A stretch of DNA of 15,161 nucleotides. It comes from a bacterium. Its GTDB lineage: Bacteria > CSSED10-310 > JAJRTK01. The position numbers and the translations under genes are program-made. Positions within the stretch are counted from its first letter, which is position 1, and every line of letters starts with the position of its first letter. The notes below the pieces were generated by a model. The model ran no database searches, was not told the DNA's origin, and was given only the letters and a program-made list of their open reading frames with translations. Location of the stretch: contig JAJRTK010000123.1 in the NCBI GenBank assembly GCA_024278345.1, positions 1-15,161 on the forward strand, read 5' to 3'. Shown here piece after piece: positions 1,984 through 15,161 of this stretch.

Positions 1984-2787
1984 CTAGAGATAGTGCTGCA
2001 ACGTCAGGCATTTGAGGCCGCCGCCCAGTTTCAAGAACTCGCTGATATCGGTGGGGATCACCGAGTATCCTCGTTTTTGTAGGGTGCGGATGAAGCTTTT
2101 GGACTCGGTATGGGTGATGACGTGATCCTCGAAGACGATGGAGTTGCAGGCGAATCCCCGGGCTTCCTCCTCGGTGATCGGCAAGAGTTCGCAGTCCAGG
2201 GAATTGAGTGTTTCGGTGTCGATGGGACCGAAGGCGTTGGGGAAATAGACGATGAGGTCGTCATCCAGGGGAAAAAGGGCGGTGTCGAGATGGTAGAAGC
2301 GTTCCAGCTCCATCTCGAATCCGTGGACCTTGCGGTGAAAGGTCTGTTCCAGGAAAACCCGCGCCTCCTCGTGACTGCGCTGGCCAAAGCCAAAGAGAAT
2401 AGAGTCGCGCCAGAGCATGGTCTCTCCCGAGCCTTCGTACCGGATTGCCTGCGGCACAAAGCGGCCCGAGAAGCCCCATGTCGTCATCATTTCTACGACG
2501 TAGTGGCGCTCGGGTTCCCGCTCCGGGTGCCGAAAATTCCCGTAAAGCGCCTTGTTTTGCACGGCGAAGACCGAGTCACCCACGAAGCAAAGCTCCGTGA
2601 GCCCTTTGCGCGGGGGCAGGATATGTACTTTGCGCGGGGCAAGTTTCTGGTAGAGTTCCACCAGGGTCCACCACTGTTCGTGGGCCTTCTGCTTATCGAA
2701 GGGTTGCGACGTGTCCATCCAGGGGTTGATTTCGTATTTGAGCTCCAGATAGAGGGGAGGGCAGAGGAACAACTCTTTGTCATGCAT
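1984..2787 (-). CDS. Arginine deiminase-superfamily protein (amidinotransferase/DDAH-like)
   Basis: This 267-residue protein has the layout of the guanidino-group-modifying superfamily (COG1834-like: dimethylarginine dimethylaminohydrolases, amidinotransferases, citrulline or ornithine-related hydrolases). It begins with CPPLYLELKYEINPWM, typical of this group. The likely catalytic residues are His166 and Asp168 in FYHLDTALF and the nucleophile Cys260 in GGGLKCLTL near the C-terminus. The acidic loop YEGSGETM (117-124) probably supplies the catalytic or substrate-binding Glu. The expected chemistry is a covalent thiouronium intermediate on Cys260, but substrate (arginine, methylarginine, citrulline) cannot be read from sequence. 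Start: ATG after AAGGGAG with a 5-nt spacer. It lies just downstream of the terminator that ends the flotillin operon, so it must have its own promoter, which I could not place. No arginine pathway genes are adjacent. Confidence 0.85.
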   Translation of the reverse strand: MHDKELFLCPPLYLELKYEINPWMDTSQPFDKQKAHEQWWTLVELYQKLAPRKVHILPPRKGLTELCFVGDSVFAVQNKALYGNFRHPEREPERHYVVEMMTTWGFSGRFVPQAIRYEGSGETMLWRDSILFGFGQRSHEEARVFLEQTFHRKVHGFEMELERFYHLDTALFPLDDDLIVYFPNAFGPIDTETLNSLDCELLPITEEEARGFACNSIVFEDHVITHTESKSFIRTLQKRGYSVIPTDISEFLKLGGGLKCLTLQHYL

Positions 2788-2853
2788 GAAAACTCCCTTG
2801 ATCCCAGTGGCCGTGTCACCGTGAAGGGCAAGAGTGGGTTCGTCAGGGGAGAC

Positions 2854-2892
2854 AAAAAAAGGGCACGCAGGACAGGATCGTCATGCGTGCCC
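2854..2892 (-). terminator. Rho-independent terminator of the flotillin operon
   Basis: On the minus strand, GGGCACGCA pairs perfectly with TGCGTGCCC (9-bp stem, 14-nt loop) and is followed by seven T residues (2854-2860 on the plus strand are all A). It begins 33 bp past the stop codon of the second flotillin gene, as expected for the end of that transcript. Confidence 0.9.
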
Positions 2893-2925
2893 GGTTTGTC
2901 CAGCGGAAGGGCGCTGAGAAGGAGA

Positions 2926-4212
2926 CTAGCTTTGCGAGGTGCTGACTTTGGCGTTGCCGGCCTGGGAGTTGCCGGCCAGGGAGTTGAGAAGCGCGGGGAC
3001 GTCAAGCCCCAGCGTTTGCTTGAGTTGCTCGTTCATGGCCACAGCGCTGGCGGCGGTGTTCCCCCCGCCATTTTTGCCGGTCATGGCCGAATCGATGAAG
3101 GTCACCCTGTCGATCCTTGTCTGGCCGATGGTACCGGTCATGATCTTGATGAGGGCTTCGAGTTTCTGAGTCAAGAAGACTTCCCGTGCGGAAGATCCCG
3201 CTTTTTTCCAGGTGCCGGAGATCTCCCGAAGGGAAAAGGCAGCCGCGCGGCCTTCCTCGATGATCTTGGCCGCCGCGGCTTTGGCCGCGGCTTCCATGAC
3301 GATCTTTTGGGCTTCCGCGGGGCGTACCTTGTCGGCTAGGAGCTGGAGCTTGACCTGCTCGATGCGCGCCCGCTGGACTTCGAGTTCACCCCGCGCCCTG
3401 GCCACCTGAGCCGTCACGGTGGATTTCTCCTCGGCGATCATCGCCTCCTTTTTCGTCTGAGCATCGATGATGCGCCGCTTGGCCTCGGCCTTGGCGACCT
3501 CGATCTCGGCGTTGATTCGGGCGATGGATTTCTCCTGGGTATTCTGGGCGTCCCGGACGGTGGCCAGTGCCTTATTCTCCGCTTCGGCCACGCGAGACTT
3601 CATCTCGAGCTCCGCGGATTGCTTCCGACCGATGGAATCGAGATAAGCTACATCGTCCGAGACGTTCTGAATCTTGAGGTTGTCGAGATCGAGGCCGAGG
3701 CTCCGCATGTCGCGATCAGCTTCGTGGACAAGGTTCTTCTGGAACAACACCCGGTTCTGGTTGACCTCTTCGGGGGTGAGGGTTGCCAGGACGCCACGGA
3801 GGTTACCCTCGAGGGTTTCCTGGGCGATCTTCATGATCTGGTTGCGGCTCTTGCCCAGAAATCGCTCAATGGCATTGCCGATGAGGGGCTCACCACTGGC
3901 GATCTTGATGTTGGCGACGCCCAGGACGTGGAGGGGAATCCCGCCCTTGGCGTAAGCATCTTTGACCTGGAGCTCGATGATCATGTTGGTCAGGTCCAGC
4001 TTATCGACGACTTCCGTCAGCGGATTGCGGATCGTTCGACCACCGTGGACGATGCGGTAGCCTCTTTGCTTTCCTTCCACGGTTCGCTTTGATCCGGAAA
4101 CGACCAACGCCTCGTTAGGTCCGCAGATGTAAAGCAATTTCCTGAGGTTGACGACAATAGCCAGGATGCCGATGACCACAATAATGGTAATAGCGCCAAT
4201 TCCTTCGAACAT
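2926..4212 (-). CDS. Flotillin-like SPFH protein, second paralogue
   Basis: This 428-residue protein has an N-terminal membrane helix (about 8-28), the flotillin-type junction YICGPNEALVVSG (28-40), an SPFH/band 7 domain to about 195, and a long charged coiled coil at about 200-320 rich in Ala, Glu, Lys and Arg. A C-terminal region (325-411) ends with helices like those used for flotillin oligomerisation. Flotillins form multimeric scaffolds that organise membrane microdomains. It shares with the upstream gene product the pattern NAIERFLG and the block TPEEVN, so the two are paralogues, but the C-terminal tails differ. This one ends in a Ser/Asn-rich tail. The frame is open further upstream, but the ATG at 4212 follows AGGAGG with an 8-nt spacer and places the membrane helix at the N-terminus. 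It is the last gene before the terminator at 2854-2892. Confidence 0.92.
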   Translation of the reverse strand: MFEGIGAITIIVVIGILAIVVNLRKLLYICGPNEALVVSGSKRTVEGKQRGYRIVHGGRTIRNPLTEVVDKLDLTNMIIELQVKDAYAKGGIPLHVLGVANIKIASGEPLIGNAIERFLGKSRNQIMKIAQETLEGNLRGVLATLTPEEVNQNRVLFQKNLVHEADRDMRSLGLDLDNLKIQNVSDDVAYLDSIGRKQSAELEMKSRVAEAENKALATVRDAQNTQEKSIARINAEIEVAKAEAKRRIIDAQTKKEAMIAEEKSTVTAQVARARGELEVQRARIEQVKLQLLADKVRPAEAQKIVMEAAAKAAAAKIIEEGRAAAFSLREISGTWKKAGSSAREVFLTQKLEALIKIMTGTIGQTRIDRVTFIDSAMTGKNGGGNTAASAVAMNEQLKQTLGLDVPALLNSLAGNSQAGNAKVSTSQS

Positions 4213-4220
4213 GGTGACTT

Positions 4221-4226
4221 CCTCCT
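4221..4226 (-). promoter_or_regulatory. Shine-Dalgarno site overlapping upstream stop codon (translational coupling)
   Basis: A perfect AGGAGG uses the final A of the first flotillin's TGA stop (4226-4228) and lies 8 nt before the ATG at 4212. This decides the start of the second flotillin and implies that ribosomes terminating on the first can reinitiate on the second, keeping the two subunits in proportion. Confidence 0.8.
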
Positions 4227-5536
4227 CAGGCCTGTGCCGTTTCTTGCGTGATTTGGGCGGCCGCCACAAGGGCTGCGGCATCGTGTCTGATCCTGCCAGA
4301 AAGCGCACCGGCGATATCGACGCCCAGTGTTGAGCAGATCTCCTGGAGCACCGAGCTCACGATGGCGGGATAGGTCCGGACGTAATTGCCCACGGTGGAC
4401 CCATCTCCCGAGTCGATGAGCGAGACTTCGCCCACGTCCAACTGCGTGGCGGCCTCGGCGACGCTGCCAAGAATCTTGTCGATGCGCTGGAGGACAAACA
4501 TTTCCATGGCCTGGTCACCGCAATCCTTCCAAGCATCGGTGAGCATGGAGAGAGAAGCTGCCATGGCCCGACCGTTTTCAGCCACTGGGGCTGCTTCTCC
4601 GGCTGCCAGGAGCTTTCGTGCCTTCAGTTCCATCTGTGCGGGGATGACGCGTTCGGCCTCGTAACGGAGCTGCGCCAGCTCCGCACGGATACCCTGGAGC
4701 TCTTTTTCCGCCTGTGCTCGGGCCTCTTGCGCGGCCATTTCGGCACGTTCCTCTTCGGAGCGCGCCTTGGCATCGAGCTCGGCCTTGATCTGGCGCAGCT
4801 CGTTTTGGCTGCGCTTGATGGCGGCCGATGCCTTTTCCTTGGCGACGCCGCCACGGCCCAGAGCCTCAGCCTCAGCCTTTTCCGCTGCTCGGGCGGCATC
4901 GGATTCGGCGACTTCCGCTTCCTTATGGATAACGGCGATCTGCTGGCGACCGATGTTGTCCAGGTAGCTCACGTCATCGGCGACGTGCTGGATTTTGAGG
5001 GTATCGAGCTGGAGTCCCAGCTTCTGGAGGTCGTTGATGGCCTCCTTGGCAAGGCTGTCGGCGAATTTGAGCCTGTCTTCGTTCACCTCTTCCGGCGTCA
5101 TCTCGGCTAGCACGCCACGAAGATGCCCTTCCAGTGTCTCCTTGGCAACCCTCGCGATCTCGCTGCGCCCGCGACCCAGAAACCGCTCCACGGCGTTGTT
5201 GATGAACTTCGGGTCAGAAGAAACCTTGATGTTTGCGATGGCCTTGAGGGAGAGGGGAATCCCCCCCTCGGAGTAGGCGCCGTCGATGCTCATGGATACG
5301 GAGATGAGAGTCATGTCCATCCGATCGACATGCTCGATAATCGGCTTGCGGAACGTCCAACCGCCTGTGACGATGCGGATGCCGGTGTCTCCCGTTGCGA
5401 CGTCCTTGTTCGCGCCACCCGAAATGATCAGAATCTCATTGGGACGACAGATGTAGATGAAGTTCTTGAGGGCAATGAGCAGGGCAAATAGCCCGCCCGC
5501 AAGCATGATGACCAGGATTCCTAGAACATTTTCCAT
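4226..5536 (-). CDS. Flotillin-like SPFH protein, first paralogue
   Basis: This 436-residue protein has an N-terminal hydrophobic helix (3-24) and the flotillin junction FIYICRPNEILIISGG (26-41). The SPFH domain runs to about 195 and contains VERFLGRGRSEIARVAKETLEGHLRG-like sequence near 117-141 (given here only in part by position). A coiled coil at about 203-310 has EA- and ER-rich heptads, and a C-terminal domain (about 320-412) carries the LIDSGDG turn also seen in the second paralogue as FIDSAM. Bacterial homologues include FloT/YuaG and YqiK, which sit in the inner membrane as large oligomeric scaffolds. Start: ATG at 5536 preceded by AGGAG. It lies 132 bp after the NfeD-like gene and 13 bp before the second flotillin. 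A hetero-oligomer with the downstream paralogue is likely but inferred. Confidence 0.92.
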   Translation of the reverse strand: MENVLGILVIMLAGGLFALLIALKNFIYICRPNEILIISGGANKDVATGDTGIRIVTGGWTFRKPIIEHVDRMDMTLISVSMSIDGAYSEGGIPLSLKAIANIKVSSDPKFINNAVERFLGRGRSEIARVAKETLEGHLRGVLAEMTPEEVNEDRLKFADSLAKEAINDLQKLGLQLDTLKIQHVADDVSYLDNIGRQQIAVIHKEAEVAESDAARAAEKAEAEALGRGGVAKEKASAAIKRSQNELRQIKAELDAKARSEEERAEMAAQEARAQAEKELQGIRAELAQLRYEAERVIPAQMELKARKLLAAGEAAPVAENGRAMAASLSMLTDAWKDCGDQAMEMFVLQRIDKILGSVAEAATQLDVGEVSLIDSGDGSTVGNYVRTYPAIVSSVLQEICSTLGVDIAGALSGRIRHDAAALVAAAQITQETAQA

Positions 5537-5668
5537 CTTCGTGTCAGCTCCTTTTTGGCATTTGAGTCCGGAATCGGAGAAGAGGACGCTGGCTTCCGTT
5601 GTGGTCCGAGGTGTGCGTGGCTGTCTGGTCTCCTGTTGTGGAGGCCTCCCGAAGGTCTGGAAACCACT

Positions 5669-6397
5669 TCAGGATTTTCCTTTAAAGTCCCTTTGCCTCC
5701 TGTGGTTGGTGACTCGCAAGACATCTCCGTCGATGCCGTACACCAAAATGGGTTGACCGATATCGATTGGCTTTGGATCCTCCGTTCTTGCCGTCATGTC
5801 AATGAGTTGACCGCGAATCGTGATGCGCACTTTCCCCAGCTCCCCAGGCTCCAGTGGAAGAAGGGCCTTGCCTTCCGATCCGATGTAGTCCCGGACCTTG
5901 ACAGAGGAATCCACCACCTGCCTCCGAAGTCTCTGGATAATGGCTGCCGCTCCGTAGCCCAATGCTCCACCAGTCCCCAACGCGGCTGTAAAGATCGCGG
6001 TTTGGCTCGCCCAAAGGGCCGTGAGCACCGTGCCTGTTAGGCCAAAGAAGGCCGAGAAGAAGGTCCAAAATCGCAGAGAGACAAAGGGCAGCCAGAGGTC
6101 CGACGCGGCATGGAGCATCAGATCCTGATCATGGTGGACAGGAACCAAGGCACCGGCGTCGTGATCTCCGTCGAAATCAGCATCCATGTCAACATCGAGA
6201 TCGCCGTCGAAATCGGCATCCAGATCGGCATCCAGATCGGCATCGAAACCTCCGTCAATCCCAACGTCCACGTGGAGATCGAGGTCGGTGCCTACGTCCG
6301 CATCCATCTCGACATCACTGTCGTGGTGACCCAGCAGCGTCGAGGCCGCTACGAAGCCGCCACCGGCGATGAGGCAGACAACATAAACCGTCAGCAT
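5669..6397 (-). CDS. NfeD/YqiJ/YuaF-like membrane protein with Asp-rich repeat
   Basis: This 242-residue protein has a first membrane helix (1-22), a very acidic segment (about 26-92), two further membrane helices (about 104-131 and 134-156) and a C-terminal beta-rich domain (165-232) that fits an OB-fold, as in NfeD-family proteins. Its position directly upstream of flotillins matches yuaF-floT in Bacillus and yqiJ-yqiK in Escherichia coli, where the NfeD-like protein accompanies the flotillin. The acidic segment is built from repeats such as DADLDADLDADFDGD and includes DxDxDG sequences resembling calcium-binding loops. It should lie outside the cytoplasm if the first helix exports it. The frame extends upstream to 6496, but the ATG at 6397 follows GAAGGAGA and puts the membrane helix first. 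It is the first gene of the flotillin operon. Confidence 0.85.
   Translation of the reverse strand: MLTVYVVCLIAGGGFVAASTLLGHHDSDVEMDADVGTDLDLHVDVGIDGGFDADLDADLDADFDGDLDVDMDADFDGDHDAGALVPVHHDQDLMLHAASDLWLPFVSLRFWTFFSAFFGLTGTVLTALWASQTAIFTAALGTGGALGYGAAAIIQRLRRQVVDSSVKVRDYIGSEGKALLPLEPGELGKVRITIRGQLIDMTARTEDPKPIDIGQPILVYGIDGDVLRVTNHRRQRDFKGKS
6212..6247. repeat. 12-bp tandem repeat within the Asp-rich coding segment
   Basis: ATCGGCATCCAG occurs at 6212-6223 and 6224-6235, with a third partial copy at 6236-6247. On the coding strand these give Asp-Ala-Asp-Leu units. The surrounding segment 6130-6325 continues the pattern in degenerate form, as expected if slippage expanded the acidic region. 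Confidence 0.75.
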
Positions 6398-6467
6398 CTT
6401 GTCTCCTTCGCGACTCGGTTCGGGAATAGCGTCTTGCTCCCAAAGCTCCCAAAGGGCCTGCCGCCCC

Positions 6468-6496
6468 AGGCTAAGCGGAGTTCCCCGAACTGTCAA
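6468..6496 (-). promoter_or_regulatory. Candidate promoter of the NfeD-flotillin operon
   Basis: A perfect TTGACA (plus-strand 6491-6496) is followed 17 nt later by TAGCCT (6468-6473), which matches the -10 consensus at only three positions. It lies between the terminator of the preceding gene and the start at 6397, leaving a leader of about 65 nt. The spacer begins with GTTCGGGGAAC, a short inverted repeat that could be an operator. Confidence 0.35.
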
Positions 6497-6541
6497 GTCG
6501 CTTGGCTCTTTTTATAGAGTTAAAACCCCGGTTGGTCACGC

Positions 6542-6572
6542 AAAAGAAAACCCGCCCCTTTCGCATGGCGGG
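6542..6572 (-). terminator. Rho-independent terminator after the epimerase gene
   Basis: On the minus strand, CCCGCC pairs with GGCGGG (6-bp stem, 10-nt loop) and is followed by TTTTCTTTT. It lies about 36 bp beyond the stop codon at 6609 and separates the epimerase gene from the flotillin operon. Confidence 0.8.
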
Positions 6573-6608
6573 ATTTCCCGGGGTGAGATCGACGACCAAA
6601 GCCCGGTC

Positions 6609-7538
6609 TTAACGACGATGCGCCGCCGCGAACGAGTCGAACGTCTCTTCGGTGGTGTACCGGTATTCAAAGCCAGTTTCTGATTTGAGGCGCTGATTGT
6701 CCACTAGCCAGGGGTAGATGATGTAGTGGAGCATGCCCGGAGGCGCCTCGGTGATCATCTTGAGACCCAGCCCCCAACCAAGGATCAGAATGGCCTGGAG
6801 CATGGTCACCGGAAGCCTGATGACGGTGCGGCCCAGCTTCTTGGCCATCGTGTCGATGTCCAGAAAACCGTCTCCCGCAAGGTTGTAGGGACCGGCCGGA
6901 CCTTCGTGCAGCAGGAGCGCCAACGCCCGAGCAACATCGTCCTCATGCACGAATTGACCCATGGGACTGTGGTTCCTGCCCGCGATCACCACGGGCTTCG
7001 TCAGGTAGCGGGAGATGTAGTTTTGGATCGTCGGCCCCAGCACCACCACGGGCCGGACAATCTTCACACAGATCCCCTCGTCGCGAAGCGAATTGAAGAG
7101 CGCCTCCTGCCGCACTTTGTCCCGAGCATAGGCAAACTCGACGTTGCCCCGCAGCGGATGCTCTTCGGTCAAGAGCTCGGGATTGTCCGGATGCGCGCCA
7201 TACGCAACCGACGAGGTGAGGCCAATGACCGTCGGTACCTTGTGCTTGCGGACGGCCCGGATGAAGTTTGCCGTGCCCCCCAGATTGATCCGCTCTTGCA
7301 GCGCCTCGTCACTCATGGGGTTCAGAACAAAGGCCAGATGAATCGCCGCATCGACTCCAGAGCAAAGCTGATCAAAGGGGATGGTCACGTCCTGGTGGAC
7401 ATGGTGAAGCTTGGCAGGCGCTCCCTTCGGTGGAACAATATCGAGGCCGAGGATCGTCTCAACCTTTGGATCTTCCGCAAGCAGCCGAATCACTCGTTGC
7501 CCGATATATCCCGAGCTGCCTGTCACAAGGACTCTCAT
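6609..7538 (-). CDS. NAD-dependent epimerase/dehydratase (extended SDR family)
   Basis: This 309-residue protein begins MRVLVTGSSGYIGQ, with the dinucleotide-binding motif GSSGYIG at residues 7-13. Asp33 at the end of the second strand (LGLDIV) favours NAD(H) over NADP(H). The active-site set is present: Ser in LTSSVAYG (107-114) and YARDK (Tyr137, Lys141). Length and layout fit extended short-chain dehydrogenases acting on nucleotide-linked sugars or similar substrates. The motif FVHEDDVARAL in the C-terminal half is typical. Substrate cannot be assigned. The frame is open upstream to 7658, but the ATG at 7538 follows AGGAG at 7 nt and starts directly at the first beta strand. It lies 253 bp after the aldehyde dehydrogenase gene and ends in a clear terminator. 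A perfect TTGACA at 7604-7609 may be its -35 box, though the -10 is poor. Confidence 0.9.
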   Translation of the reverse strand: MRVLVTGSSGYIGQRVIRLLAEDPKVETILGLDIVPPKGAPAKLHHVHQDVTIPFDQLCSGVDAAIHLAFVLNPMSDEALQERINLGGTANFIRAVRKHKVPTVIGLTSSVAYGAHPDNPELLTEEHPLRGNVEFAYARDKVRQEALFNSLRDEGICVKIVRPVVVLGPTIQNYISRYLTKPVVIAGRNHSPMGQFVHEDDVARALALLLHEGPAGPYNLAGDGFLDIDTMAKKLGRTVIRLPVTMLQAILILGWGLGLKMITEAPPGMLHYIIYPWLVDNQRLKSETGFEYRYTTEETFDSFAAAHRR

Positions 7539-14963: not shown

Positions 14964-15161
14964 TCATGGGCTTTTTCGGGCGGATTCCAGCTCCCGGATG
15001 CGTGCCATCAGGCGTTCTTCTTTGGCTTCCGCCCGCTCTCTTTCACTCCGCGCAGCTTGCTCGGCGGCTTCGGCGCGTTCTTTTTCGGCTTCGGCGCGTT
15101 CTTTTTCGGCTTCGGCGCGTTCTTTTTCGGCTTCGGCGCGTTCTTTTTCGGCTTCGGCGCG
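14964..15161 (-). CDS. C-terminal tail of a coiled-coil protein, possibly Uma2-family (5' end outside window)
   Basis: The minus-strand frame enters from the right edge and ends at the TGA at 14964-14966, giving 65 codons. It consists of near-identical heptads AEAEKER, then a diverged part (AEAAEQAARSERERAEAKEE) and the ending RLMARIRELESARKSP. A continuous charged coiled coil is certain. Uma2-family (DUF820) nucleases often end in such Ala/Glu/Arg-rich heptads followed by a short Leu-rich helix, so that is my first guess, but the catalytic domain is outside the window. Other coiled-coil proteins could look the same. The heptads are encoded by a perfect 21-bp tandem repeat, which suggests recent expansion. 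A repeat copy (14937-14961) follows the stop at once. Confidence 0.7.
   Translation of the reverse strand, partial: RAEAEKERAEAEKERAEAEKERAEAEKERAEAAEQAARSERERAEAKEERLMARIRELESARKSP
15065..15161. repeat. Perfect 21-bp tandem repeat, at least 4.6 copies
   Basis: Every base from 15065 to the window edge repeats with period 21 and no mismatch, and the array continues outside. Each unit encodes one heptad (AEAEKER) on the minus strand, so copy-number change keeps the reading frame and lengthens the coiled coil by one heptad. Confidence 0.95.

Follow-up and report, generated by a model that had tools for sequence, protein, structure and literature searches.

The window, i.e., the whole 15,161-nucleotide stretch of bacterial DNA analysed here, encodes a protein in which an extremely Asp-rich segment lies between the first and second hydrophobic helices. 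The gene is an ordinary, if Asp-extreme, member of a known family, the NfeD2-type (YuaF/YqiJ-like) partners of flotillins, and the newer point is that a loop nearly free of basic residues occupies this position throughout the family and is kept by selection. The original prediction knew of no described role for such a domain, and no paper describing such a loop was found among the open-access papers searched. The features of the locus, in window coordinates, are as follows.

6403..6408, minus strand: Shine-Dalgarno-like AAGGAG (from the sequence), 5 nt before the ATG at 6397 of the nfeD2-type gene
5669..6397, minus strand: nfeD2-type gene (YuaF/YqiJ-like flotillin partner), 242 aa plus stop, ATG at 6397
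6332..6394, minus strand: TM1, residues 2-22, with zero charged residues (AF2 helix 2-22 and hydropathy)
6080..6331, minus strand: whole TM1–TM2 loop, residues 23-106; within it a helix is weakly predicted at 91-105
6122..6322, minus strand: Asp-repeat core, residues 26-92, predicted disordered
6193..6244, minus strand: 12-bp tandem repeat, 4.3 copies, 85% match (Tandem Repeats Finder)
6159-6248: 36-bp array enclosing the 12-bp repeat, 2.5 copies, 81% (Tandem Repeats Finder)
6014..6076, minus strand: TM2, residues 108-128 (AF2 helix), with Arg109 at the loop-side boundary
5906..6001, minus strand: TM3 and its extension, residues 133-164 (AF2 helix), with a basic QRLRRQ at 155-160
5705..5890, minus strand: NfeD C-terminal OB fold, residues 170-231 (AF2 pLDDT 83-90)
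4226..5536, minus strand: flotillin paralogue 1 (SPFH/Band_7, FloT-like), 436 aa (PF01145, E 4.4e-21; flotillin-1/2 structures 9bq2, E 4e-35)
2926..4212, minus strand: flotillin paralogue 2, 428 aa (PF01145, E 3e-19)

The two Band_7/FloT-like genes lie directly downstream of the nfeD2-type gene on the same strand; they are 38% identical to each other, and the second starts 13 bp past the stop of the first. No sigma-70-like promoter was detected on the minus strand of 2700-6700. The locus is of the NfeD2-SPFH2 operon type of Hinderhofer et al. 2009 (PMC2636767), with the flotillin doubled, and tandem flotillin paralogues are also found in cyanobacterial operons (PMC2636767). The OB domain matches that of YuaF (2k14; Foldseek 3.6e-6; VIA Z 9.3 over 82 residues) and 3wwv (Z 11.2), and Foldseek also matched the barrel to other NfeD soluble domains and to the QmcA-YbbJ complex (8z5g, chain AA). 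Together with the two downstream flotillins, these matches bear out the proposal of an NfeD-like flotillin partner. The match to the NfeD C-terminal domain family PF01957 (22.1 bits, E 1.8e-4) falls below the curated cut-off of 29.1 bits. Known NfeD2 proteins are very divergent, being about 21% identical to NfeD (PMC2636767), so that this shortfall limits the Pfam label and not the structural assignment. PF21001 (YqiJ_N) gave no match in the window protein at E up to 1, and one relative (L004) matches it at 5e-9. A long NfeD of the NfeD1b type was rejected, since TM1 begins at residue 2 and an N-terminal ClpP-like protease domain was not found.

The Asp-repeat segment itself was located correctly in the original prediction: the core corresponds to exactly residues 26-92, between hydrophobic helices 1 and 2, and the 12-bp tandem repeat in the underlying DNA was recovered independently by Tandem Repeats Finder. 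Its description as polyanionic is equally sound, since the 67 residues comprise 25 Asp, 1 Glu and 4 His with 0 Lys/Arg, giving a net charge of −26 (about −27 per chain for the window protein). Over the inter-helix loop, Asp falls on alternate positions, with DxD occurring 18 times (z = +5.3) and DD 0 times (z = −3.8) relative to composition-preserving shuffles. The Asp codons of this loop are mixed (16 GAT, 10 GAC), showing that the Asp repeat is not a plain nucleotide repeat.

A family survey was required to judge whether this loop is particular to the window protein. A single-protein search of genome contigs gave only two relatives, and whole-genome profile searches were therefore used. The Asp loop was still part of the first profile, A1, and drew in Asp-rich, seemingly unrelated frames (L006, L012), which were rejected, as was a similar frame from the single-protein search (L002). 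The survey was consequently redone with a profile called A2, which covers TM2-TM3-OB only and omits the loop, because a loop-containing query would favour Asp-rich relatives. A2 was run on 386 diverse genomes and on 121 genomes of one further phylum; its rows came from the Asp-biased first search, but the choice of the second phylum sample did not depend on it. One phylum, that of genome G097, is represented by a single genome in the sample. A scan of viral contigs gave a single match (L145), which proved to be an unrelated reading frame spanning a repeat of low complexity.

The A2 survey yielded 68 non-redundant strong homologues, 60 of which have a flotillin neighbour at E<1e-20 within the fetched stretch. 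The TM1–TM2 loop ranges from 14 to 108 aa (median 43.5); because a simple hydropathy rule defined where it starts and ends, a few loops take in some TM1 residues and one or two weaker rows outside the 68 (e.g., L116) are misplaced. Pooled, the loops contain 17.9% Asp, 19.5% Gly, 10.9% His, 4.0% Glu and 0.52% Lys+Arg; outside the loops, the corresponding figures for these proteins are 2.9% Asp, 1.2% His and 8.3% Lys+Arg. The composition outside the loops predicts 271 Lys+Arg residues within them, yet only 17 were observed; 56 of the 68 loops have none at all, and the net charge is negative in every one (median −9.5). The window protein is an Asp-extreme example of this loop family, and the implied uniqueness of its segment does not hold, as the segment is present family-wide with varying length. 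On the tree, Asp-rich loops occur in every main clade, and the state has changed between Asp-richer and Asp-poorer about ten times. Four NfeD1-type relatives (L117, L119, L122, L124) are without the insert.

Some of these loops carry His in place of Asp. Two adjacent nfeD2 genes at one locus (L087) encode loops of different character, one with 10 Asp and 2 His and the second with 0 Asp and 17 His. The loops of four weaker relatives (L130, L131, L136, L137) are His/Gly-rich (8-23 His) rather than Asp-rich, which suggests that His loops and Asp loops are alternative states. A negative correlation between Asp and His content (rho −0.37) was weighed as a possible sign of metal ligands and then set aside, since Asp also anticorrelates with Glu and Gly, as compositional closure would yield.

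The order of residues in the surveyed loops is as distinctive as their composition. DxDxD was observed 107 times vs. 20 expected (z 19.8) and DD 11 times vs. 106 expected (z −11.9); DHD (z 8.0) and GHD (z 6.1) are enriched, HH (z −4.4) and HxH (z −2.8) are depleted, and Cys is nearly absent. The pooled Asp codons are again mixed (GAT/GAC, 270 to 315). Two homologues from one genus (L014 and L015), nearly identical otherwise, differ by a 12-residue in-frame indel equal to two 6-residue GDLDVH-like units, and their aligned loop contains 13 synonymous and 0 nonsynonymous changes. Repeat copy-number variation of this kind could potentially provide fast-evolving markers. Across nine close pairs, loop dN/dS was 0-0.14 in six, 0.37 in one and uninformative in two, values that should not be taken too exactly, since dN can come out artificially low when codons are aligned across repeats. 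The amino-acid sequence of the loop is under purifying selection. Taken together, the indel, the low dN/dS and the non-random residue order show that length is loose while composition and spacing are kept. Presence in nearly all strong homologues, combined with selection, makes the loop a family-wide module and not an oddity of the window genome.

These data bear directly on the reading of the loop as neutral low-complexity filler, generated when GAY-GCN-like repeats slip during replication within a loop that tolerates such changes. The 12- and 36-bp DNA repeats, the different copy number in the two congeners and the unfixed length are what such a process would produce. However, the low dN/dS in six of nine pairs, the mixed Asp codons, the scarcity of Lys/Arg, the strong residue spacing and the persistence of the loop across very divergent homologues make neutral filler quite improbable. 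Slippage may create loop length; the retained composition is not explained by it.

The side of the membrane on which the loop lies was examined through structure models and characterized homologues. The AF2 model of the window protein consists of a helix (2-22), a stretch modelled as disordered (pLDDT about 32-46), helices at 91-105, 108-128 and 133-164, and then an OB barrel modelled with confidence; the loop is thus very probably disordered, judging from this model. The order of the three hydrophobic helices preceding the OB domain (2-22, 108-128 and 133-164, of modest confidence) is repeated in the model of a homologue (L009), the membrane helices of the models having pLDDT of about 50-70 from three-sequence alignments. 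Both models contain a TM2–TM3 hairpin (108-128/133-164 in the window protein, 63-83/87-119 in L009), which would place the loop on the OB-domain side whether the hairpin crosses the membrane fully or only dips in. Lys/Arg residues lie at both hairpin ends, at the loop-side boundary in 56% of homologues and at several positions after TM3. Because of how YFP folds, a fluorescent C-terminal fusion implies a cytosolic C-terminus. B. subtilis NfeD2-YFP gives fluorescent foci (PMC4928834), pointing to a cytosolic C-terminus if YFP sits C-terminally, as the strain names suggest. In S. aureus, the OB domain of NfeD is cytosolic and binds FloA directly (PMC11222466), while the cage formed by QmcA and YbbJ extends into the cytoplasm (cited in PMC13086221). 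With the loop on the OB side in the models and the OB domain cytosolic in the family, the loop is most likely cytosolic, sharing that side of the membrane with the OB domain and the flotillin ring.

This topology bears on the original reading of the segment, which linked a calcium-responsive domain outside the cytoplasm to a membrane scaffold. An acidic loop without Lys/Arg is typically what an exported segment looks like, and the missing Lys/Arg on their own would favour a location outside. Two DxDxDG motifs, both DADFDG, are indeed present in the window loop. However, the hairpin puts the loop on the side of the OB domain, which is cytosolic in S. aureus NfeD (PMC11222466) and for which the cytoplasmic QmcA-YbbJ cage (cited in PMC13086221) points the same way, so that the models and cited homologues point to the cytoplasmic placement that the original prediction had itself named as refuting it. 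The calcium-type character of the motifs was not supported either: neither the window loop nor any of the other loops containing 5 or more Asp matches the EF-hand loop D-x-[DNS]-x-[DNSG]-G-x5-[DE], no flanking helix pair is predicted by AF2 in the window protein, and just 6 of 63 loops contain DxDxDG. Among the homologues, loop length varies (14-108 aa, and the L014/L015 indel) and DxDxDG itself is not conserved. Overall, an extracytoplasmic calcium-responsive domain appears very improbable. The RTX nonapeptide repeat GGxGxDxUx was not seen on inspection of residues 23-106. Matches to the MSCRAMM Ser-Asp adhesins (SdrC/D, ClfA/B) were discarded as low-complexity only (NCBIfam 18-20 bits vs. 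cut-offs of 999-2500).

The best explanation, which is held tentatively and at somewhat less than even confidence, casts the disordered cytosolic TM1–TM2 loop as a polyanionic bristle that sits at the flotillin cage base and binds either divalent cations or basic partners. Each partner copy may add one flexible bristle near the cage mouth, a step for which the support is weak, and the bristles together might, as a guess, bind and concentrate divalent cations, chiefly via the one-sided Asp face of DxDxD strands, with the His of DHD/GHD possibly assisting in many relatives. Neutralization by cations or by a basic partner could then collapse the loops and so adjust how the cage assembles, its charge or the access of clients. 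Several observations count against parts of this explanation. HH and HxH, typical of Zn sites, are depleted, and the second L087 copy and similar loops are nearly without Asp, showing that a polyanion alone is not universal. In addition, deletion of nfeD2 in B. subtilis leaves the structure of the FloT assembly visibly unaffected (PMC4928834).

A related but doubtful reading is that the loop is a cytosolic polyanionic element acting entropically or electrostatically, with no specific metal role, serving to repel or shield, or to dock onto a basic surface (flotillin, RNA, clients), and to keep the cage mouth open or hydrated. The uniformly negative charge of all 68 loops, the nearly absolute avoidance of Lys/Arg and the wholly acidic face left by the DxDxD pattern are consistent with this reading, as is the direct binding of NfeD to flotillin (PMC11222466). 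However, a pure charge effect predicts neither the strong preference for Asp over Glu (17.9% vs. 4.0%) nor the enrichment of DHD and GHD, and the almost complete replacement of Asp by His in some relatives also argues against it. The His content instead recalls a buffer or relay loop for transition metals (Zn/Ni): His makes up 10.9% of the loops vs. 1.2% elsewhere, DHD and GHD are enriched, the DLHDHDH motif of PacL1 binds Zn2+ (PMC9374683), and a disordered acidic region of P. aeruginosa ZnuA resembles the His-rich loop of other Zn substrate-binding proteins (PMC4542158). Such a role is nevertheless unlikely, given the depletion of HH and HxH, the near absence of Cys, the Asp-dominated window loop with its few His and the fact that no metal gene was recognized adjoining the window gene.

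Among known systems, the closest is YuaF/NfeD2 of B. subtilis, the partner of FloT (YuaG) in the SPFH2 subgroup (PMC2636767), which shares the OB fold, three hydrophobic stretches before it and a flotillin operon. Sequence similarity to the window protein is very low (phmmer E 0.52), whereas the homologue profile finds YuaF at 3.5e-9; the window loop is long and Asp-extreme, and the comparison rests on the fold, the hydrophobic stretches and the operon. E. coli YqiJ (DUF1449; PF21001 YqiJ_N), the partner of YqiK, has the same order of helices and OB domain, and its TM1–TM2 loop of 32 residues contains 3 Asp and 5 His with no Lys/Arg, being far less acidic than the window loop. In QmcA-YbbJ (8z5g), whose YbbJ is an NfeD1-type partner, YbbJ 28-152 aligns with window residues 107-234 (TM2-TM3-OB), although the middling Z and high rmsd (VIA-align Z 7.1, rmsd 8.9, 119 residues) support the helix order and not the exact geometry. 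That system is stomatin-type, in contrast to the flotillin-type window system, and the start of the alignment leaves room in YbbJ for TM1 only, without a TM1–TM2 insert. S. aureus NfeD-FloA offers a likeness in its cytosolic OB-like domain that binds flotillin, but that NfeD has six predicted TM segments, and an Asp loop is not mentioned in the available part of the report (PMC11222466). PacL1 of M. tuberculosis is comparable in being a membrane scaffold whose disordered, D/H-alternating motif lies in the cytosol and binds Zn2+ (PMC9374683), the DLHDHDH tail peptide having a KD of about 6 uM (PMC9374683). However, PacL1 is an unrelated DUF1490 protein with a single TM and a C-terminal motif, and its foci are independent of flotillin.

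Flotillin partners, unlike the sampled stomatin-type NfeD, thus share a selected, charge-extreme loop, which would lie at the membrane face of the flotillin ring. It is conceivable, if rather doubtful, that flotillin-type NfeD partners across bacteria carry a cytosolic, Lys/Arg-free, Asp/His-alternating loop, conserved in kind, that makes the mouth or lumen of the cage a cation-responsive polyanion gate or reservoir. If true, such a gate or reservoir would add to bacterial membrane microdomains a level of regulation that has not been described so far. The loop also provides a concrete, removable element for probing the role of NfeD with flotillins, and E. coli YqiJ has a weak version of it. 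Elsewhere in the window, a perfect 21-bp tandem repeat of 4.6 copies, CGGCTTCGGCGCGTTCTTTTT, with a 63-bp higher-order unit, was observed at 15012-15161; it reaches the contig end and may be the cause of the contig break.
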